The translations under genes and the position numbers were made by a program. The notes under the pieces are model-generated. The model worked only from the letters and a program-made list of their open reading frames with translations, was not told the DNA's origin and ran no database searches. Positions 6 through 11,200 of a DNA stretch of 64,000 nucleotides are shown here, piece by piece; position 1 is the stretch's first letter; every line of letters begins with the position of its first letter. The stretch comes from Armatimonadota bacterium (GTDB taxonomy: Bacteria; Armatimonadota; UBA5829; DSUL01). The DNA is taken from positions 1 to 64,000 of the forward strand of contig JADLDK010000005.1 in assembly GCA_020846715.1 (NCBI GenBank), written 5' to 3'.

Positions 6-731
6 TCAGCCAGCAAACGTCCTGTAAGCATTGCCCTGCAGGAGCAGGTCCTTCTCACGGCCGGCTAACTCCACCTCTTCGATCATCCCCAGCACGATAG
101 CGGGGTCCACCAGCGGCGCTCCGCTCCCGAAAAGGATCCTGTGTCCGTTCACCGCCGGCCAGGCCTGCCGAACCTTATCCGGGGATATCTCTCCTGTCGT
201 TGACAGATAGATGTTGAGATAGGCAGTGGCCGCTGAGATTGCCGATCGCCAGTCTTCGCCGCCCATTCCCATCAGAACGAACTTCATCTGGTCGAACTTT
301 GCAGCCAGCGCCGAGGCCGCATAGACGCATTCGCGGTTGGGGGCGCTAATCAGGAGCGGCTTTCCGTAGCGCCGGTAAGCGTTGAGTATCTCTTCTGAAT
401 CCGCGTTTGAAACCGGAGTGTTGCCGTTGCCCTGAACGAGCATCATGCCGACGAAGTTCTTGCGGGACATATAGCGGCGCATGTCTTCAATCGCCTGCGG
501 TGGGTGATTGGTGTTGACCACCGCATATCCCAGCAGCCGCCGTTCATTCTCGATCTCTTTTGCCAGCCACGCGTTGCCAACCTCAAAATCGCAATCCATG
601 GCGAGCGCGCTGATGACGATAGCATGTGTGATCTCCAGCTCGTCCATCCGGCGCAGCAACTCTTCGCGTCCGAAGTCTCCAGGCACTGGGGCGGCGGGCC
701 CGAGGATTGCGAAGGAATCAATCAGTGGCAA
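6..731 (-). CDS. amidohydrolase-fold protein lacking metal ligands (paralogue 1)
   Basis: The 241-residue product resembles the amidohydrolase-2 (TIM-barrel metal-dependent hydrolase) family: an N-terminal strand MPLIDSFAILG, a central KFVLMGMGG and a late ILFGSGAP. In active members these places read IDxHxH, laHmGg and fGSDyP. Here the two N-terminal His, the middle His and the final Asp are all absent, so metal-dependent hydrolysis is unlikely. I chose the TTG at 731 because GGAG lies six bases upstream and because the upstream paralogue starts the same way (MPVIDTYTIFG). A TTG at 743 is the alternative. The first bases overlap the end of the preceding gene, which points to translational coupling. 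Function unknown; fold assignment fairly secure, activity doubtful. Confidence 0.75.
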   Translation of the reverse strand: MPLIDSFAILGPAAPVPGDFGREELLRRMDELEITHAIVISALAMDCDFEVGNAWLAKEIENERRLLGYAVVNTNHPPQAIEDMRRYMSRKNFVGMMLVQGNGNTPVSNADSEEILNAYRRYGKPLLISAPNRECVYAASALAAKFDQMKFVLMGMGGEDWRSAISAATAYLNIYLSTTGEISPDKVRQAWPAVNGHRILFGSGAPLVDPAIVLGMIEEVELAGREKDLLLQGNAYRTFAG

Positions 732-1455
732 GACGATCTCCAAATACTCGCTGGGCGTTAGTCAACAAAATGGCTTCCTTGGCGGCTTCGGGTACATGCG
801 ACTGGCGCACATAGCGCAGCGCGCCTTCGATACTGCCGCGCGGAGTGGCCGATCCAAACAGAATTCTATCCACACCGACGACATTCACCATCTCTTCCAG
901 CAGTCCCAGGTGTGTTAGCCCGTCAGTAGATACCAGCCAGTTTTCCATCAGCGGCAGCACAGCTTCCATCTCTGAGACGCACTCTGTCGGAATGTGAACC
1001 AGGATGATTGTCATCTCCCGGGTTAGCGCGACTCGCGACAGCGCTGTAATCTGTCCTGGCTCGTTGATGGCGACACTCACAGGAATCCCAGACGGTTTGA
1101 TAGCCTCCAGGCATTTGTCAAACGGCGTGTATCTCGAGATCGGCCACCGGTGCAGACTGGGAAAGAAGCGCACACACGCCCAGGGCTGCTTCGCGATCGC
1201 GTCGGCGTATTCCCACGGCCGAGCCATGCTCACGGGGTTGATGACCGCCGCAGGTGAGAGTCCTCCAGCAGATTTCACCTGATGATAAGAGCTGCGCAGT
1301 GTTTCAGCGGTGGTCTCAAAAACGCTGTCCGTTGTGTGCGCAATGGCCCCGGTAACCTCGCGCCCGTCGAGAGCCGCCTTCAGCCGCTCCAGCGAAAGGT
1401 CTGCGCCGCCGGCCGGCCAGGCGCCAAAAATGGTGTAGGTGTCAATTACTGGCAT
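718..1455 (-). CDS. amidohydrolase-fold protein lacking metal ligands (paralogue 2)
   Basis: This 245-residue product is a paralogue of the next gene downstream, with the same opening (MPVIDTYTIFG) and the same late motif (RILFGSATP). The N-terminal HxH of amidohydrolases is missing and the terminal Asp is Ala. A His in IILVHIP matches the family's middle His. Its ATG lies one base after the gltX stop and its end overlaps the next gene, so gltX and the two paralogues look like one transcription unit. No catalytic role can be assigned. A structural or ligand-binding role, perhaps as a heterodimer of the two paralogues, is speculation. Confidence 0.75.
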   Translation of the reverse strand: MPVIDTYTIFGAWPAGGADLSLERLKAALDGREVTGAIAHTTDSVFETTAETLRSSYHQVKSAGGLSPAAVINPVSMARPWEYADAIAKQPWACVRFFPSLHRWPISRYTPFDKCLEAIKPSGIPVSVAINEPGQITALSRVALTREMTIILVHIPTECVSEMEAVLPLMENWLVSTDGLTHLGLLEEMVNVVGVDRILFGSATPRGSIEGALRYVRQSHVPEAAKEAILLTNAQRVFGDRLATD

Positions 1456-1456
1456 A

Positions 1457-2962
1457 TCAGGATGCGCTCAGCTCCCGGGATTTCTGTCGGGCTTTTCGCA
1501 GACGTTCGATGACGCGGTCTTTGCCCAGGACGGCAAGCGCTTCAAAAAGAGACGGTCCAACGGTGCGCCCGGTGCTGGCTATGCGAACGGGGTGAATCAC
1601 AGCGCCTCCCTCGCGTCCGACACTGGCTCCCACACTGCGGATCTGCTCCTCAAGCAGCGCATGCAGCTCCTCGCGCGCCGGTGAAGCCCAGTCGGTTGCC
1701 TCCAGCGCTGCCTCCAGCTTCTCGTAGTAGCCTGGCGCAGTTTCGTCCCGCAACCACTTCAAACCCTTCTCTTCGTAGTCGAAATCAGTTGCGAAATAGT
1801 TCCACGAGTAATCTATGAAGTCGGCTACGGGCGTGGAGCGAGACTGCATAAGCGCGATAACCTCAGAGCGGTAGTCGGGGTCCACCCCGTCGAACATCTC
1901 CTCAAACCGCTTCAGAACAGACAACTTCTCTTCGCGCTCGTTCTCTGGCAGTTTGTCTGCGTGAGTCTCGCAAAGGCGAATGTGGCGGCGGACTTCCGCT
2001 TCGTAGTCCTCGTTGGACAAACGGTTAGTATGCTGTTGGTTGATCCAGTCCAGCTTCTGGATGTCGAAGATGGCGGGATGTTTCACGATCCCTTCGATAC
2101 TGAACGCTTCGGTCAGCTCCTCACGGGTCATCACTTCGCGGTTGTCGCCAGGCGACCAGCCGAGCAGCGCCATAAAGTTCAGAACGGCGTCCGGAAGGTA
2201 GCCGTGCTCGATATAGTCCTTGAAAGCAACTGAGCCATGACGCTTTGAGAGCTTGGATCGATCCGGTCCGAGAATCAGCGGCGGGTGAACCAGCGTTGGA
2301 GCCTGCCACCCGAGCGCGTGGTAGAGCTGCAGGTGTTTGGGCGTGCTGGAAATCCACTCTTCCGAGCGCACAACGTGGGTGATATTCATCAGGTAGTCGT
2401 CCACGACGCTGGCCAGATGATAGGTCGGGTAGCCGTCCGCCTTTAGCATCACAAAATCGTCCTGCAGTACGTTGTCAAAGGAGAACTCTCCGCGAACAGC
2501 GTCCGTAAACACGGTCGTACCCTGTGTGGGCATTGCAAAGCGAATGACGTGCGGCTCATCGAGACTTCTGCCGTGGCTGTCTTCCCGGCAATATCGGTCG
2601 TATCCGGTCGGCCGTCCGGCTTTCTGCTGCTCTTCGCGCATTTCAGCCAGCCGTTCTGGTGAACACCAGCAGCAGTACGCATGGCCCCCGTCCAGGAGCT
2701 TTTGCGCGTACTCCTGGTAGTGTTTCAAGCGCGAGGATTGATAGATCGGGCCTTCATCCCAGTCTGTACCGAGCCAGCGCAGCCCCTCTATTATCTCTTC
2801 AACTGCTCCGGGGACGTAGCGAGTGCGGTCGGTATCCTCAATGCGCAGCACGAACTCGCCCTCAAAATGACGCGCCAGAAGCCAGGAGAAGGCGGCATTC
2901 CGGACGTTTCCAATGTGCATGCTGCCGGTTGGGCTGGGCGCAAAACGAGTTCGCACGTTCAC
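1457..2962 (-). CDS. gltX: glutamyl-tRNA synthetase
   Basis: Class I aminoacyl-tRNA synthetase of 501 residues, charging tRNA-Glu (and possibly tRNA-Gln) in the cytoplasm. The ATP-binding HIGH-type motif is seen as PSPTGSMHIGN near residue 9 and the KMSKS-type loop as DRSKLSKRHG in the middle of the protein. A cysteine/histidine cluster (CCWCSPE) near residue 98 resembles the zinc-binding site of GluRS. Length is normal for the family. It begins with GTG. The two amidohydrolase-fold genes follow almost without a gap. Whether this is the discriminating or non-discriminating form cannot be told from sequence by eye. Confidence 0.97.
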   Translation of the reverse strand: MNVRTRFAPSPTGSMHIGNVRNAAFSWLLARHFEGEFVLRIEDTDRTRYVPGAVEEIIEGLRWLGTDWDEGPIYQSSRLKHYQEYAQKLLDGGHAYCCWCSPERLAEMREEQQKAGRPTGYDRYCREDSHGRSLDEPHVIRFAMPTQGTTVFTDAVRGEFSFDNVLQDDFVMLKADGYPTYHLASVVDDYLMNITHVVRSEEWISSTPKHLQLYHALGWQAPTLVHPPLILGPDRSKLSKRHGSVAFKDYIEHGYLPDAVLNFMALLGWSPGDNREVMTREELTEAFSIEGIVKHPAIFDIQKLDWINQQHTNRLSNEDYEAEVRRHIRLCETHADKLPENEREEKLSVLKRFEEMFDGVDPDYRSEVIALMQSRSTPVADFIDYSWNYFATDFDYEEKGLKWLRDETAPGYYEKLEAALEATDWASPAREELHALLEEQIRSVGASVGREGGAVIHPVRIASTGRTVGPSLFEALAVLGKDRVIERLRKARQKSRELSAS

Positions 2963-3044
2963 AGCGCGCCTGCCTTCAGGCCAGGCACTGGCAGGTTACA
3001 GAGAGAGCTTTTCAGGCCGTGTGTAGTCTCAGGACAGTTCAGCT

Positions 3045-4883
3045 TTAGTACTCCCTGACCACGTACTTGCGCTTCGACTTCTGCAGTCCCTGAGACTTCT
3101 TCTTGGCGTCAAACACCCACAGCCCGGTAGTCGCCTGGCGCGAGAAACAGGGATAGGCGCTCAGAAGGCTGGCGACCAGCAACCGGTTCACGCGGCGGAT
3201 TAGGTTGAGCTCCACAAACAATCTCGGATAGCTCAGGCCCCCGCTTTGCCTCTCCAGCATTCTGCACACAACTTCGAACGTCGGCAGGTTTTCTGTGTCC
3301 GCCTCCTCTTTGAGTTGCAGAAGCTCAAGCAGGCGTCCCGGTTGCACTGAAGCCGTCTCATCCGTCTCCTGAGAGTACTCAAGATCAAAGACATCCGAGC
3401 GGTCGGTGGCTTTCAGGTGGAACAGTCCGCCGGAAATGGGCATGTCCAGCAGTGCGTAAATCTCGCCAAAGCCGTAAAGCAGCCTTGACTCGCGGTTCAG
3501 CCAGACTGTATAGGACGATCCATCGTAGCGGAGGACGATCTCCTGTATCTGCGGCTCCAGTGCGAAGAAGCCGTCCGCAAGCTGCGCCAGGGGATAGGTT
3601 CCCTCCTGTTTGTGGTGGTACTTCAAGACCAGATCCACTTGCGTGGGTGGCTTCGCGGGATGCTCTTCCGGGTCTTCATCGCCCACGTCCTGAACCAAAA
3701 GCTCGTGAATCTCTTTGCTTAGCCCGCTCTCCAGCCCGGCGGTCTCCATTTCGATATCAAAATGCTCACCATCTGGTGTCGCAAAGTCGTACTTGGGGAT
3801 GAGCAGAGTCTCCGGGGTCTGGTGGAACTCTTCCGGGACTGTTCCGGCCGGGCGGAAACGCCCTGCCCCCAGCCATGTGAAGCGCGGATCGTGCCGCAGT
3901 CTCTCTGTCAGAGTCTCGGCAGTCGGCTCGTAGGCGCGCTCATCTTCCTCAAGCTCAAATATCTTCAGTACAGCGTCTGAAAGCTGAGTTGTCTCGGCGC
4001 CGTTGGCCTGAATAATGCGCCCAAACTCTTCAATGTCCTGATCGGTGATGGTAGGCGGAGTCTCCTCAGCGTCTTCCTCCTCTTCCACCTCGTTCTGCAC
4101 AGAAGCGGCCAGAGTCTTCAGCCCATCAAGAAGCTTCTTCTCGCCTGATTTCGGATAGACCATCTGGTCTGAAGAGACACCCAGCTCCTCATCCGCCAGA
4201 ATCGCTGCGTACAACTGACTCTGATCGATATCTGGCCCGAAGTGCTCCCAGGCGAAAAACTGCAGAGCCTTGATGCTGACAGGTTCTTTGGCTTTCTGAA
4301 CGACTTCTCGCGCAGCCGCGGCGGGATCTGTTTTCCAGTCCGCTTTGTCTGCGGCGCTCTGGAACGGCTCCACGTCTTCAGGCTCCATAAAATTGTAGAA
4401 AAGGACGTCTGATGTCGTTTCATAGTCCCCGTCAACCAGCCAGCTCTTCAGCCCGTACGACTCATTGCCAATAGCCGTGAACGCATCAAAATCCTGCAGA
4501 AACTTGGTAGCCACCGCAGTCATGGTCTCTTCGTCGCGCTCTGTGATGGTCGCCATGCCGGCGCCAATCTGCTGAGCGGTCAACGGCCTGCCATATCCGG
4601 TAAAAAAACCTTCCAGCAGCTTTTCGAAGGGAAGCTCCGGAGACTCCCATCGAGCGGAGATGTCCCATTTTCTCTGCGTCTGAACAAACCGGCTGGAGGA
4701 GCGAAGCGCGTATTTGGCGAGGCTCAGGTTCACTGCCGGGTGCCCGATTCCGGAGACCAGCTCGCCGGTCTTTCTGGGTCCAGAAGACTGAATCTGTTCG
4801 TAGAGCTTGTCCTGGAGAATGGTCAGGGCGAAGTGCTCTGTGTCGCTGCGCATTGTGGCTGCGTCCGCTGATTTCTTGGCCAA
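3045..4883 (-). CDS. multi-winged-helix protein of unknown function
   Basis: A 612-residue soluble protein starting at TTG, with a clear GGAGG seven bases upstream. I do not recognise a named family over its length. It seems built from repeated units of about 60 residues that each end in a wing-like pattern of an aromatic, a short loop and a Trp/Phe strand: near residues 65-80, 133-150, 232-247, 332-347 and 584-602. The second unit (FTAIGNESYGLKSW) closely resembles the HARE-HTH winged helix of RNA polymerase delta subunit RpoE. An acidic linker lies near residues 265-275 and the C-terminus is rich in Lys/Arg. Nucleic-acid or polymerase binding is an inference. No signal peptide or membrane segment. 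Confidence 0.85.
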   Translation of the reverse strand: MAKKSADAATMRSDTEHFALTILQDKLYEQIQSSGPRKTGELVSGIGHPAVNLSLAKYALRSSSRFVQTQRKWDISARWESPELPFEKLLEGFFTGYGRPLTAQQIGAGMATITERDEETMTAVATKFLQDFDAFTAIGNESYGLKSWLVDGDYETTSDVLFYNFMEPEDVEPFQSAADKADWKTDPAAAAREVVQKAKEPVSIKALQFFAWEHFGPDIDQSQLYAAILADEELGVSSDQMVYPKSGEKKLLDGLKTLAASVQNEVEEEEDAEETPPTITDQDIEEFGRIIQANGAETTQLSDAVLKIFELEEDERAYEPTAETLTERLRHDPRFTWLGAGRFRPAGTVPEEFHQTPETLLIPKYDFATPDGEHFDIEMETAGLESGLSKEIHELLVQDVGDEDPEEHPAKPPTQVDLVLKYHHKQEGTYPLAQLADGFFALEPQIQEIVLRYDGSSYTVWLNRESRLLYGFGEIYALLDMPISGGLFHLKATDRSDVFDLEYSQETDETASVQPGRLLELLQLKEEADTENLPTFEVVCRMLERQSGGLSYPRLFVELNLIRRVNRLLVASLLSAYPCFSRQATTGLWVFDAKKKSQGLQKSKRKYVVREY

Positions 4884-4981
4884 AATAGGTCCTCCGAAGT
4901 CGGTGAAGTCGTGTCAACTGCTCAGCTTACAAGTATGCCGCGAACAGCGAGATTTGGCAACGCGCGCCACACTGGGCAGGT

Positions 4982-7288
4982 TTAGAATGCGTCGTCTTCT
5001 TCGGGTTCGTAATCGTCGTCGGACGGGGAGCCCGAGGGCGGCAGGCCGAGAATCTCGTCTATTCGCTCCGGTGAGACCAGAACTTCCCGTGGATTTGCCC
5101 CGTCCGCTGCGCCGACCAGCCCCTGCTGCTCCATAGCATCCACGAGTCTCGCCGCCCGGGTATACCCAATTCTGAATCGGCGCTGGATCATTGACGTTGA
5201 GGCTCTTCCCTGCCGGATCACCATCTCCACAGCGGGTAGATAGAACTCATCCGCCAGAGCAGGATCGTCTCCAGCGCCTCTTGCGCCGCCCTCTCCCGCA
5301 GCTCCCGTTTCAACGGGTGTGAGCGTATATTCGGGCTTGCGCTGCCCTTTGAGGTGCTCCACCAGCTTCTTGACCTCGCCCTCCGAGATAAAGGCCCCCT
5401 GGATGCGCATAGGCTTGGGCGCGTCCATCGGCCGGAAAAGCATGTCTCCTTTGCCAATCAGCCTCTCAGCGCCGTTGACGTCCAGAATTGTTCGGCTGTC
5501 AATGTGGGATGACACCGCAAAGGCGACGCGGCTGGCGATATTGGCTTTGATGAGACCCGTCACCACGTCCACACTTGGGCGCTGGGTCGCGAGCACAAGA
5601 TGGATGCCCACGGCGCGCGCAAGCTGCGCCAGACGAACGATGCTCCCTTCCACTTCCTGTGCCGCCTGCATCATCAAATCCGCCAGCTCATCCACCACAA
5701 TCACAATGTAGGGCATGCGTTCGGAAGGCTCCACCTGAGTGTTGAAGTTGTGGATGTTGCGGGTGCCTTTCTGCTCCAGTCGGTCGTAGCGGCGGTCCAT
5801 CTCCTGCACGGCCGCCTTGAAGATGCCAGCCGCGCCGCGCACGTTGCGAATGACGGGTGAGCAGAGGTGCGCTACGCCGTCAAAAAGACTCAACTCGACC
5901 CGCTTTGGATCGATCATAACCATGCGCACTTCGCCGGGTGTCGAGCGGAACAGCAGGCTGCTGATGAGTGCGTTGAGCATCACGCTCTTGCCCATGCCTG
6001 TCGCACCCGCCACCAGCAGATGCGGCATCTCCGCCAGGTCCGCAATAATCGGCTGCCCCGAGACGTCAAAGCCCAGCGGGAAGGCGAGTTTGGACGGGTG
6101 ATTGACCATGTCAGGGCTGCGCAGCAGGTCTTTGAGCCCGACCATACCCCGGTGGCGATTTGGCACCTCCACGCCGATGGCCGCCTTTCCGGGAATCGGC
6201 GCTTCCACGCGGACATTAATCGCCGACAGAGACATGGCGATGTTGTCGGCCAGGCTGACAATTTTGTTGACTCGGATGCCTGGCGCAAGCTCGATTTCGT
6301 AGCGCGTGACGGTCGGCCCGTGAGCAATCTCCACCACGTTGGCTTCAATCTTGAAGTCGCTGAGCGTGCGCTCTATGATCTCAACGTTTTCGTTCAGCTC
6401 ATCCGCGCTGCGCTCCGGAGTGGGCGGTGGCTCTTCCAGAATCTCGAGGGGTGGAAGGACGAACTCTTTGTCCTGTGGCGGAATGTCTTCCAGTGAGAGG
6501 GCAGGCTGCTGAGCGCCATTCTTTGCGTGTCCGTTGACGGAGATCTGACGCTCAGGGCCTGCCGGTGAGTCAGTCTGTTGCTCCTCGCTCTGGCGCTTGC
6601 GCGCCTCAATGGCGCGCGCAATCATACTGCGCCGGTCCACTTTTGGCTCCGCAGAGGAGCTTTCGTCCTCGTCGTCACCGGATGTTTTGGATGCGGCTCG
6701 GGGATCAGTCCGCGGCTTTCGCGCCGCCGGATCTTCTGGCTGCTGCGTACGCAGATTGCGAACAAACCCCGCAATCTGGGAAAACAGCGCTACATCGACT
6801 GTCACCATAGCCAGCGCCAGCGCCAGAGCGCCCAGAACCACCAGCGTTGACACTTTGCCAAGAGCAACCAGCAGGAAGTACGAGACGCCCGCGCCGATAT
6901 ACCCTCCGCCGAGGCGCATCAGAGCCGGCTGGAAGTAAACATCTGGCCTCGGATTGCCCCCGGAGATAGACACATGCAGCCAACTGATGACGACGACCCA
7001 CAGTCCTGCGGCGGCAAACAGGCGGCGTGTCAGCGGAACGCGCAGTTGGCCAAACAACAGCGTCACGCCAGCGCCAATCGCCAGCAGCGGAAACAGATAG
7101 GCGCCGATTCCCGCGAGAAGCCGCAATACCGAGTTGATGTCGCGGCCAAACTCACCGGCCTCCTGAGGAGAGGCGACGCTGACCAGACTCACCACGCCAA
7201 TGGCGATGACCGCTATGCCCGCCAGGTCACCGGCAAGGGGCGTGGGAGGGTGCGAGGAAGAGCGTCTCTTTGTAGCAGTCCTTTGCAT
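4982..7288 (-). CDS. ftsK: DNA translocase FtsK/SpoIIIE
   Basis: Septal DNA pump that clears chromosome termini from the division site. The 768-residue product has several N-terminal membrane helices (about residues 15-180), a charged linker rich in Glu/Ser/Pro, and a motor domain with Walker A GATGMGKSV and Walker B-type VIVVDELADLM, followed by ATQRPSVDV. The C-terminal gamma domain is a winged helix (MIQRRFRIGYTRAARLVD) that reads KOPS-type sequences in known homologues. I chose the ATG at 7288; a GTG at 7312 would add eight residues but has no better ribosome binding site. The C-terminus is acidic. Confidence 0.96.
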   Translation of the reverse strand: MQRTATKRRSSSHPPTPLAGDLAGIAVIAIGVVSLVSVASPQEAGEFGRDINSVLRLLAGIGAYLFPLLAIGAGVTLLFGQLRVPLTRRLFAAAGLWVVVISWLHVSISGGNPRPDVYFQPALMRLGGGYIGAGVSYFLLVALGKVSTLVVLGALALALAMVTVDVALFSQIAGFVRNLRTQQPEDPAARKPRTDPRAASKTSGDDEDESSSAEPKVDRRSMIARAIEARKRQSEEQQTDSPAGPERQISVNGHAKNGAQQPALSLEDIPPQDKEFVLPPLEILEEPPPTPERSADELNENVEIIERTLSDFKIEANVVEIAHGPTVTRYEIELAPGIRVNKIVSLADNIAMSLSAINVRVEAPIPGKAAIGVEVPNRHRGMVGLKDLLRSPDMVNHPSKLAFPLGFDVSGQPIIADLAEMPHLLVAGATGMGKSVMLNALISSLLFRSTPGEVRMVMIDPKRVELSLFDGVAHLCSPVIRNVRGAAGIFKAAVQEMDRRYDRLEQKGTRNIHNFNTQVEPSERMPYIVIVVDELADLMMQAAQEVEGSIVRLAQLARAVGIHLVLATQRPSVDVVTGLIKANIASRVAFAVSSHIDSRTILDVNGAERLIGKGDMLFRPMDAPKPMRIQGAFISEGEVKKLVEHLKGQRKPEYTLTPVETGAAGEGGARGAGDDPALADEFYLPAVEMVIRQGRASTSMIQRRFRIGYTRAARLVDAMEQQGLVGAADGANPREVLVSPERIDEILGLPPSGSPSDDDYEPEEDDAF

Positions 7289-7301
7289 AGCAGACGCCGC
7301 A

Positions 7302-7331
7302 CAGTATACCACGTCTGCGTCTCAGCCGTGA
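7302..7331 (-). promoter_or_regulatory. possible ftsK promoter
   Basis: On the minus strand TTCACG, an 18-base spacer and TATACT precede the ftsK ATG by only a few bases beyond the expected start of transcription. If real, the mRNA would be nearly leaderless. The -35 match is poor. Confidence 0.3.
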
Positions 7332-7366
7332 ACACCTGTTCGAAAATACCGGCCACACAGAACAAA

Positions 7367-7395
7367 GGGAGCAGCGCGCAAATTTCACTGCTCCC
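7367..7395 (-). terminator. intrinsic terminator after the small secreted protein gene
   Basis: A perfect 8-bp stem (GGGAGCAG paired with CTGCTCCC, 13-base loop). On the minus strand it is followed by TTTGTTCTG. It lies between the stop at 7459 and ftsK, so it would end the upstream gene's transcript. Confidence 0.6.
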
Positions 7396-7458
7396 CTCTC
7401 AAAGGCTATTCAGCGCCAGGCTACTGGCCAAGGCGCTAAAGTCCAACCGGGCTTGCTC

Positions 7459-7950
7459 CTAGAGTCCAGGTTTTTGAGGTGTAGATTCCGGGAGGGTCTT
7501 ACGCAGGTTGTTGGCCCACATCTCCGCCAGCTTTGGCGCTGTTGTGTGGTTGACTTTGGCGGAGGTGGCGTCAGCGGTGATGATAAGGATGTCTTTCACA
7601 AATATCGCCCACTCACCGCGCTGCTTCTGCACGTGAATATCTTTCGGATAGAGCACACCAATGCTCAGAGCGTCCACGATCCTTTGCTGGACGATATCCG
7701 CTCTCTGCTGGCAGGTCTTGCCGGCGGCCGGTGCGTGAATACGCAGGACTACCTGCCCGGCCAGCGATACCTGCGCGGGCTGTGCGCAAAGACCTGCCGC
7801 CTCACGCGCCTGCGGATCGCTCCAGTCCGCGTTCCCGGCCGCTCCCTGGGCGACGAGAGTGCCCGCTGTGGTCATGATAAGCGCAGCCCCAGCCGCTAGT
7901 ACGCCCATCAAGGCGCGCCTGGTATCCAAGCTAAGAATTTTACTGATCAT
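7459..7950 (-). CDS. small secreted protein resembling the periplasmic domain of cyanobacterial MscS-like channels
   Basis: A 163-residue product with a signal peptide (basic start, hydrophobic stretch to about residue 34, ending near VAQGAAG). The start at 7950 is fixed by GGAGG six to eight bases upstream. The mature part has the pattern VVLRIHAPA, an RADIVQQRI helix, a short beta hairpin ending in VKDILIITADATSA, and an AEMWANNLRKTL helix. That order matches the N-terminal extracytoplasmic domain I know from cyanobacterial mechanosensitive-channel proteins, here without any channel. Function unknown. It has its own terminator downstream. Confidence 0.8.
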   Translation of the reverse strand: MISKILSLDTRRALMGVLAAGAALIMTTAGTLVAQGAAGNADWSDPQAREAAGLCAQPAQVSLAGQVVLRIHAPAAGKTCQQRADIVQQRIVDALSIGVLYPKDIHVQKQRGEWAIFVKDILIITADATSAKVNHTTAPKLAEMWANNLRKTLPESTPQKPGL

Positions 7951-8239
7951 GTATCTCCTCCAGTGCTTACGAGTTTGCGTCAACATCCATCGTCCTCCAA
8001 AGACTGCCGCAGCCAGCCGGCAATGAAGCGTCAACGCAGCTCATTACCGCGATTCTACCCAAAACATCGCACAGCTTCAGAGAGCCGGAGATGCGGGAAG
8101 GTTGCGCCTTGCGCTCAAATATCTCTCTGGCGTAAGTGGACAAACAGATTCATGCACCGTTGCGCTTTTGTCTGGGAAGCCGCCTGAATCAGGATCGTCC
8201 GGCTTGTCTGGGCTGACCACCGGAGTCTGCTATCCTGCC

Positions 8240-11200
8240 TCACACTCTCGCGGTCAGCGGGCGTCTTTTTGGGGTTTCTGAAGATGGGTTGAGAGCTTTT
8301 CTCGCCAGGCGCAGAAACTCGCTGACCATGTCAAGGGGACTGCTCTTTCCTGCGAGCAAGCGCACCTGTCTCGGTTCCCAGATGTGCTCCGGGAAAGCCT
8401 TTTTGAGTTGCCGTATCGCTTCTGGCGGCAGGCTCACTCCTGCGCCGAGAGACACGACAATGCGCCCGTTGTCTTCGCGGACGGACTGTACACCGACGCG
8501 GTCGCACTCTATGCGCAGCTTCAGAAGCGCCAGCGCGTTGCGAACCGGATCTGGCAGCGCCCCGAACCGGTCGGCCAGCTCCTCTTCCAGCTTCACAGCC
8601 GCTTCTTCAGTGACCAAAGAGCTCATCCTGCGGTACAGTGAAATACGCATGCCTTCGTTGGAGACGTAGTCAGTCGGAATAAACGCCTCTACTGAGATGT
8701 CGGCTGGCGGCAGAGCTTTTTCTTCTGGTAGCTCTTCCCCTTTCAGCTCCTTCACAGCCTGCGCCAGCAGGTGACAGTACATGTCAAAGCCGACGGAGAG
8801 CATCTGACCGTGCTGCTCGGCTCCCAGAATGTTACCCGCTCCGCGGATCTCCAGATCCCGCATCGCGATCTTGAATCCAGAGCCCAGGTCCGCGAACTCA
8901 CGAATGGCCGCCAGGCGTTTTTCGGCGACTTCAGAAAGAACCAGATCGGATTTGTACAGCAGGTAGGCGTAAGCCTGGCGTGGACTGCGGCCAACACGCC
9001 CGCGCAGCTGGTAAAGCTGAGCCAGCCCGAACTTATCCGCGTTGTTGACGATGATAGTGTTTGCGTTTGGAATATCCAGTCCACTCTCAATAATCGTTGT
9101 GGACACAAGCACGTCAAACTTGTTGTGGTAGAAGTCGAGCATCACTCTCTCGAGCTCATGTTCGCTCATCTGTCCATGCCCGATAGCAATTCGCGCGTGA
9201 GGCACGAGCCTGGCGATGCGATCGGCAAGCTGGCCGATTGACTCTACGCGGTTGTGCACTACAAATATCTGGCCGTCTCTGTCCAGTTCTCGCACAATCG
9301 CTTCGCGCACCAGATTGTCGTCAAACTCGCGCACATACGTCCGGACCGGGATGCGCCCTTCGGGCGCTTCGTTTACAACGCTCATGTCCCGGATACCTGC
9401 CAGCGACATGTGAAGAGTTCTGGGAATAGGCGTCGCTGTGAGCGTCAGCACATCCACCGACAGGCGCATCTGCTTCAAGCGCTCCTTGTGGCTGACCCCG
9501 AAGCGCTGCTCTTCATCAACGACTACCAGACCCAGATTCTTGAACTCGACATCTTTGGACAGCAGCCGGTGTGTGCCGATTACAATGTCCACGTTGCCAG
9601 CTCGCAGATCTTCCAGAATCGCCTGCTGCTCCTTAGCGGAGCGGAAGCGTGAGAGCATCTCCACCTTCAAGGGAAAAGCGGCCAGCCGCTCTGAAAAGAC
9701 ATTGAAATGCTGCTGCGCCAGGACAGTCGTGGGACACAGCACGGCCACCTGCTTGCCGTCCAGCACCACCTTGAAGGCCGCGCGCATGGCCACTTCCGTC
9801 TTGCCGAACCCGACATCCCCACAGATCAGGCGGTCCATGGGTCTGGTTTCCTGAAGGTCGCGCTTTACATCCTCAATTGCCCGTTCCTGGTCTCCAGTCT
9901 CCGTAAACGGAAACGCCTGCTCCATCTCCCGCTGCCACGGTGTATCCGGCGGAAAGCCGTAGCCTCCCAGCGCTTCACGCGCCGCGTACACCTGCAGCAA
10001 CTCTTTGGCCATCTCCCTTACAGAAGCTTTGACCTTCTTTTTGGTTCTCGCCCAGTCGCTGCCGCCCAGGCGGTGAACAGTTGGGGGAATGGCTTCAGCA
10101 GAGGAGTATTTCTGCACCCGATCCATCTGGTCTGCGGGGACGTAGAGCTTGTCGCCGCCCGCGTACTCCAGAAAAAGAAAGTCCCGTCCGTTGAGGTTGG
10201 CCATGCCGCGGTAAACGCCAATGCCGTGATGGACGTGGACGATATAGTCGCCCGCTTTGATATCAGAGATACTTGCAATCGGCCGGGCGTCGCGCCGGCT
10301 CATCCGCGGACGTCGCACAACGGCAGCCTCGAAAATATCCGCATCGGCAACCACAACAACGCCGGCGCCCGGCAGCCTGTAGCCTGCGGGAAGAGAGCCT
10401 TCTATGACCGTGACACCTGTTTCTACTTCACCGCGCAACTCTCCGTGAACAGGCCGCACATCCAGCTCCAAGAGCATCTGCCCAACCCGCAAGACCTGTG
10501 GGGTAACTACAACAACGCCAAGATCGTGGCTGATCCATTTTTTGGCGTTCTCCGCAAAGACTCCCACCTGAGCGCCAAAGGTCTCCATTCCAGAAGAAGG
10601 CAGGGAGATGCGCTGTGCCGCGCTCAGCCATCGGGCTTCGTTTGGCAGGCTGGACATGACAACGCAGCGCCGCTTCAGCATGCTCTGCCGCGCGTGCTCG
10701 AGACTTACGTGACGCTCGTGTTCGGCGGCCAGCGCCTGCCCGCGTTCGGCGCGGCTGAAGTAGATTTCCGTGAGCTCTTCTCTCAGCCGGTCCCAGCCAC
10801 TCTCGGACAGTCCCGGCTCATCCCACAGAATCACCGCATTCGCCGGCAGCCAGTCAAGCAGGCAGCTTTCCTCTGAGACCAGGAACGGAAGGTAGTACTC
10901 CAGACCATCAAAAGAGGCGCCCTGTCGGAGCGACGAAATGTGCTCGCTGACGCGCAACTCCAGGGCTTCCGCATCCGGTGCGCGTCCCTCATTGCGCAGC
11001 TTCTCAATCTGCTCATCAAGGCGCTCCTGACACAAATCAGCCGCCCGCTCACCTCTTTCTCCGATGAGGACTTCCCGCCCGGGTGGCACAACCACCTCCG
11101 GCAATGAGCCACCAGAGCGCTGCGTCTCGGGATCAAACGGGCGAATAGATTCGACCTCATCGTCAAAGAGCTCGATACGTACGGGTGAGTTTTCAGTAGG

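Follow-up and report, generated by a model that had tools for sequence, protein, structure and literature searches.

Domains of the B3 type are seven-stranded pseudobarrels with two short helices and are best known from plants and restriction enzymes. HARE-HTH domains (PF05066) belong to the same superfamily as the winged helices treated here, and the RNA polymerase delta subunit (RpoE) of Bacillota resembles the present protein, hereafter the target, in having a homologous winged helix (strongly supported for repeats 2 and 3 of the target), a GLxxW wing and acidic regions. Delta of B. subtilis is described as a 173-residue protein with one domain and a disordered acidic tail, which binds RNA polymerase between the beta-prime shelf and jaw and whose folded domain and acidic region displace nucleic acids (PMC7749165); a second report describes delta as Firmicutes-specific (PMC11156646). 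Unlike delta with its one domain, the target has five domains of this kind, an inserted beta domain and a basic tail, and it comes from another phylum. Delta is built as one N-terminal domain with a long, disordered and acidic stretch C-terminal to it. This build was not found in the target, the acidic parts of which are internal and the C-terminus of which is basic; for this reason the target was not placed in the delta family.

The window, by which we mean the whole stretch of 64,000 nucleotides that was analysed (contig JADLDK010000005.1 of an Armatimonadota bacterium), holds the gene and its likely ribosome-binding site at the following positions:

3045-4883, minus strand: target gene, a 612-codon ORF with a TTG start, encoding an Armatimonadota core protein
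4891-4895, minus strand: GGAGG, likely ribosome-binding site, 7 nt 5' of the TTG, read from the sequence

As the preliminary description had claimed, this ORF lies between ftsK (4982-7312), upstream, and gltX (1457-2962), downstream, with all three on the same strand. The gene is single-copy in the window genome. The target protein taken singly gave no match above noise against Pfam, NCBIfam or PDB sequences, FliG_N (E 0.11) and Skp1 (E 1.2) being judged noise. An Rfam scan of positions 2900-8300 had no match, and a promoter scan returned three promoter-like sites, one of them at 4932-4960 on the minus strand, 5' of the target start, to which no weight was given. On the far side of gltX, two adjoining 245-aa proteins encoded at 6-743 and 718-1455 (minus strand, 3' of gltX) look amidohydrolase-like by eye and share one BLAST cluster with proteins from 11 loci; an NCBIfam scan of the two gave no match. 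Between mfd and ftsK, 7459-8034 (minus strand) encodes a 191-aa protein with no confident Pfam or NCBIfam family, for which Imm17 at E 0.017 is likely noise.

Homologues of the target, mostly full length, were found in 96 of 101 genomes, its own included. With a 50-row profile and E up to 1e-5, the target was present in 194 of 205 genomes of the phylum that are at least 90% complete, and by our own count 189 of these 194 have one match and five have two. These homologues rule out a spurious ORF. A second sample, of relatives at 95% completeness, gave matches in 153 of 392 genomes at E up to 0.001. Split by phylum, these amount to 153 of 157 Armatimonadota and 0 of 235 other bacterial genomes, the latter figure comprising 16 rows listed as 'same domain' without a match and 219 unlisted rows without a match that were assumed to lie outside the phylum. 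The 11 absentees among the 205 include all six genomes of one family, f32 (G081, G097, G222-G225). When the 11 were searched again at E up to 10, weak matches appeared in three (E 0.025-0.08), one of which was rejected as a homologue, being an OmpR/PhoB-type response regulator. A scan of genome contigs with one single sequence as query found three relatives. No relative turned up among plasmids, searched with one member of the family, or among viral sequences, scanned with the window protein. Given its presence in 194 of 205 and 153 of 157 genomes and its absence from f32, the target is a near-universal core protein of Armatimonadota that is missing from one family, and not an oddity; the preliminary description is amended on this point.

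Along the protein the following features were delineated:

4638-4832, minus strand: repeat 1 (residues 18-82), winged-helix/HARE-like, weakly basic; from hhalign to s2 and s4
4410-4646, minus strand: repeat 2 (residues 80-158), delta-like winged helix with a YGLKSW wing; from hhalign and a PDB-wide search
4098-4337, minus strand: repeat 3 (residues 183-262), delta-like winged helix; from a PDB-wide search, hhalign and a fold match
4056-4100, minus strand: acidic linker (residues 262-276), family median net charge -6
3834-4058, minus strand: repeat 4 (residues 276-350), delta/HARE-like winged helix; from hhalign to s2 and delta
3648-3833, minus strand: acidic linker (residues 351-412) with a DVGDEDP motif, median net charge -14; from conservation
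3348-3662, minus strand: beta domain (residues 408-512), probable B3-type pseudobarrel; from fold Z and hhalign
3108-3350, minus strand: repeat 5 (residues 512-592), highly conserved winged helix (ExNxxRR...ASxLSxY); from hhalign
3048-3110, minus strand: conserved basic C-terminal tail KKxxQGxxKxKRKY (residues 592-612), median net charge +5; from conservation

Repeat profiles were built from 76 aligned family rows, in which the window protein occurs twice, near-duplicates are present and proteins under 560 aa are excluded, and were cut into segments s1 to s5 (residues 18-82, 80-158, 183-262, 276-350 and 512-612). Compared with hhalign, the pairs gave P values of 6.8e-7 (s2-s4), 1.7e-6 (s2-s3), 7.3e-6 (s3-s4), 5.6e-5 (s2-s5), 1.4e-4 (s1-s4), 2.7e-4 (s1-s2) and 3.9e-4 (s4-s5). 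These seven of the ten pairs scored 20.8-32.8, and the best of 200 column-shuffled controls reached 16.6; the other three, s1-s5 (16.0), s1-s3 (13.7) and s3-s5 (10.8), fell under that maximum. The beta domain scored 7.6-15.2 against the five segments. Judged by profile comparison, the five segments are homologous repeats beyond chance, linked partly via one another, since seven of ten pairs beat every shuffled control. The five related segments noted earlier are thus borne out, although a different, beta-rich domain (about residues 408-512) splits the tandem array proposed with them, separating repeat 4 from repeat 5.

The segment that the preliminary description had likened to the wing of delta, FTAIGNESYGLKSW, corresponds to residues 135-148 and lies within repeat 2, which keeps the GLxxW wing as in delta. 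Against the N-terminal domain of B. subtilis delta, hhalign gave P 3.1e-9 for s2 (score 42.7, maximum of 30 shuffled deltas 12.6), 6.2e-7 for s3 (31.9, maximum of 30 shuffled deltas 12.0), 6.2e-6 for s5, residues 512-612, over its first half only (32.4, shuffled maximum 15.5) and 1.4e-4 for s4 (23.1, maximum of 30 shuffled deltas 13.7); s1 was not significant (P 0.054), and the beta domain, taken as a negative control, scored 17.7 with P 0.006 over 10 columns. When the repeat-2 profile alone (63 rows) was run against all PDB sequences, delta was the sole top family (E 6.5e-5; next non-delta match 0.062), and the same was true of the repeat-3 profile alone (E 3.5e-4; next 0.083). The family profile A3 (50 rows) placed five distinct delta sequences on top among PDB sequences (best E 2.4e-4; next 0.12). 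Each of these PDB searches counts as one piece of evidence because the five delta sequences form one family. The shuffled controls and the PDB-wide searches rule out a chance likeness of the wing to delta, and the resemblance claimed for that segment holds up. The wider claim of winged helices in tandem, one of them delta-like, is supported by the profile comparisons, with the amendment that repeat 1 does not match delta directly.

Against an alignment of seven HARE sequences, hhalign gave P 5.9e-5 for s2, which is therefore nearer to delta than to these local HARE-HTH proteins, 7.3e-5 for s4, 0.0014 for s3, 0.0016 for s1 and 0.0041 for s5; the whole family profile reached a probability of only 16% against the same alignment. 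The preliminary description had proposed PF05066 as the family to which the segments should match, and this was not borne out for the window protein, which had no PF05066 match up to E 10 and so fell short of the curated cut-off. At E up to 1, PF05066 matched 5 of 50 members of the family (best 2.1e-5) and, on single segments, 6 of 63 for repeat 2 (best 0.0026) and 1 of 63 for repeat 3 (best 0.16). DUF4777 was commoner than HARE-HTH both in whole members (9 of 50, best 1.5e-5) and in repeat-2 segments (15 of 63, best 1e-5), and ten members scanned apart had no HARE-HTH and two DUF4777 matches. The comparison of profiles nevertheless supports homology of the target to the HARE-HTH superfamily and the presence of a winged helix of the delta N-terminal type. 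By the same measure, delta/HARE homology is shown for repeats 2 and 3 and probable for repeats 1, 4 and 5. Recognisable HARE-HTH proteins differ from the target in being sporadic: PF05066 was found in 7 of 61 genomes, six of them above the cut-off (G007, G008, G013, G014, G015, G049 and G056; loci L094-L102), and the window genome had no match at E up to 0.01. The target is near-universal, mostly below Pfam detection and has five copies of the domain. Two of the relatives' genomes carry one protein with two PF05066 domains, a point of likeness to the target, and the C-terminal part of some PF05066 proteins looks restriction-related by eye.

Two AlphaFold models were made from only four sequences, and both are of low confidence (mean pLDDT 56 for the first and 61 for the second, covering residues 396-612). 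In the first, three helices and then two strands make up each of repeats 3, 4 and 5; for repeats 1 and 2 the model is helical, without wing strands and largely of low pLDDT. The repeated winged helices expected from the preliminary description are thus visible, at this confidence, in repeats 3, 4 and 5 but lack wing strands in 1 and 2. In the fold search with the first model, repeat 3 matched chain E of 8x6g (Z 8.1, 73 residues, 3.2 A), presumably delta to judge from the chain size and PMC11156646, and repeat 5 matched delta (7f75 chain L, Z 7.2, 4.2 A). ZBP1, forkhead, an uncharacterised protein and MarR types lay within about 1-2 Z of the delta matches, so the fold search points to winged helices and not to delta in particular.

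The beta domain is a sixth domain, which the preliminary description had missed. When the first model was compared with 992 chains, the ten matches listed for residues 411-510 were all B3 domains or of the B3 type, among them LEC2, At1g16640, VAL1, FUS3 and VRN1, together with an auxin response factor, LlaJI.R1 and NgoAVII. The best was the B3 domain of LEC2 at Z 7.8 (2.6 A, 88 residues), although model pLDDT is low here and a Z under 8 is often unspecific by the tool's own warning. Against four plant B3 domains, hhalign gave a score of 26.0 (P 2.5e-4, probability 43%, collinear over 81 columns; maximum of 30 shuffles 15.1), and the same four sequences taken singly gave P 0.006-0.1. B3 was absent from the Pfam matches of 63 members, and an hmmsearch of PDB with the profile returned no B3 chain. 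In the second model the first strands of the domain were poorly modelled, with the VAL1 B3 domain at rank 50 (Z 5.5), and Foldseek found nothing significant, the best match of any kind having E 0.42. Taking the probable fold together with the weak collinear profile match over residues 408-512, we consider it likely that this is a B3-type domain, akin to those of the plant proteins LEC2, VAL1 and RAV1 and of the restriction enzymes NgoAVII and LlaJI. The target differs from these systems in having no nuclease and no plant regulator context and in escaping Pfam.

Restriction enzymes contain both HARE-HTH and B3 domains, so the target might sense or regulate the modification or restriction of DNA. 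The structural matches to the B3 domain of R.NgoAVII and to LlaJI.R1 fit such a role, as does a paper on winged-helix-fusion endonucleases that mentions HARE-HTH. Against this, no nuclease or methylase domain was found in the five window proteins scanned, the family has no nuclease or methylase Pfam at a significant E-value, and PADLOC gives nothing for the window protein, on which ground a defence protein was rejected; the gene is moreover core and not patchy. We regard a role in modification or restriction as highly improbable.

Net charge and conservation vary along the protein. Family median net charges are +2 for repeat 1, -5 for repeat 2, -2 for repeat 3, -7 for repeat 4, -3.5 for the beta domain and +1 for repeat 5, with -34 for the whole protein; conservation peaks in the C-terminal part, above all in repeat 5 and the tail. 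Winged helices often bind proteins, and the acidic character of repeats 2-4 would suit a scaffold for contacts between proteins, in which the winged helices have lost their binding to nucleic acid and polymerase. The conserved basic tail and the arginines of repeat 5 speak against a scaffold of this kind, which seems very unlikely. Repeat 5, the best-modelled part of the second model, is there most like forkhead and other winged helices (FoxP2, Z 8.5). This nearness to DNA-binding winged helices, the B3-like domain, the strong conservation of repeat 5 and tail and the occurrence of ftsK near the gene would all suit a chromosome- or nucleoid-associated protein acting without RNA polymerase, in which the B3 domain, repeat 5 and the tail lie on DNA and the other winged helices serve self-assembly or partners. 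Yet the target is acidic overall, as most nucleoid proteins are not, and its nearest sequence relative found is delta, so that we hold a purely nucleoid role to be rather unlikely.

Gene neighbourhoods were compared at 62 of 63 loci (L031-L093; one with a 367-aa fragment was dropped, and some are cut by contig ends), with neighbours grouped by BLAST clusters. At 38 of 62 loci the target has a RimO-type gene no more than 1 kb upstream, at 25 a gltX relative lies within the stretch and at 16 an ftsK relative does; the one member of the RimO-type cluster that was scanned is RimO above the NCBIfam cut-off (TIGR01125). A RimO match at E up to 1e-60 is present in 26 of the 28 nearest genomes; comparison of coordinates shows that in each of these 26 rimO shares contig and strand with the target and lies upstream of it by at most 0.9 kb, the gap being 0.7-0.8 kb in three of them. 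From these neighbour counts, the target belongs to a housekeeping neighbourhood. In the window, the ftsK-target gap (4884-4981) is without the rimO that stands just upstream of the target in the 26 close genomes. The window genome, 94% complete, has no RimO match at E up to 1e-60, its best (34% identical) lying elsewhere and being MiaB- or MtaB-like by eye; rimO thus appears to be missing from the neighbourhood of the target in this genome. The proximity of rimO in the close genomes that have it, the presence of gltX close by at 25 of 62 loci and the basic tail could be taken to indicate that the target works in translation or at the ribosome together with RimO or GltX, but the window genome keeps the target though it has no such RimO match, and the domain relatives are transcription and DNA proteins; we judge a link of this kind improbable.

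We therefore favour, tentatively and at a little less than an even chance, an RNA polymerase-associated, DNA-contacting auxiliary factor, and the target may be a new component of the transcription machinery because it combines five delta-type modules with a probable DNA-binding domain. By analogy with delta, at least one of the delta-like domains (most of all repeat 2) would attach to the polymerase surface between the shelf and jaw of beta-prime. Nucleic acid in the main channel or close to it would face competition from the acidic linkers. DNA may be held by the B3 domain, repeat 5 and the basic tail; with its C-terminal half so engaged, the target would link polymerase and DNA at initiation or in recycling. 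Docking, DNA binding and any effect on transcription are put forward here as predictions. Consistent with a polymerase-associated factor, the target is acidic overall, with acidic linkers and a basic tail, and delta itself is a folded domain plus an acidic region. The retrieval of delta by repeats 2 and 3, the B3-like domain and the phylum-wide core status of the gene near rimO and gltX also count in its favour. Against it we count the acidic repeats 2-4, the fact that the nearest syntenic partners are translation genes and the absence of the protein from f32 (0 of 6 genomes). HARE-HTH domains elsewhere are, moreover, tied to chromatin and DNA rather than to RNA polymerase; papers on ASXL bear on that link.

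In open-licence PMC literature on Armatimonadota, on combinations of HARE-HTH, delta and B3, on delta with HelD and on bacterial B3 domains, no title or opening of an abstract described the target. The modules are known, and as far as our searches show the five-repeat architecture and its phylum-wide status are new. Eukaryotic RNA polymerase III has tandem winged-helix subunits, to which the target is comparable in build, not in descent. It is possible, if on the doubtful side, that the target is a lineage-specific auxiliary RNA polymerase subunit and, as far as searches show, the first multi-domain protein of delta modules outside Bacillota, with a B3-type domain of its own and the status of a phylum core gene. 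If the B3 assignment is true, the target would show B3 in a bacterial setting that is chromosomal and unconnected with restriction, a point of relevance to the origin of that domain; if the proposed role is true, a whole phylum would have an unrecognised transcription factor or polymerase subunit.
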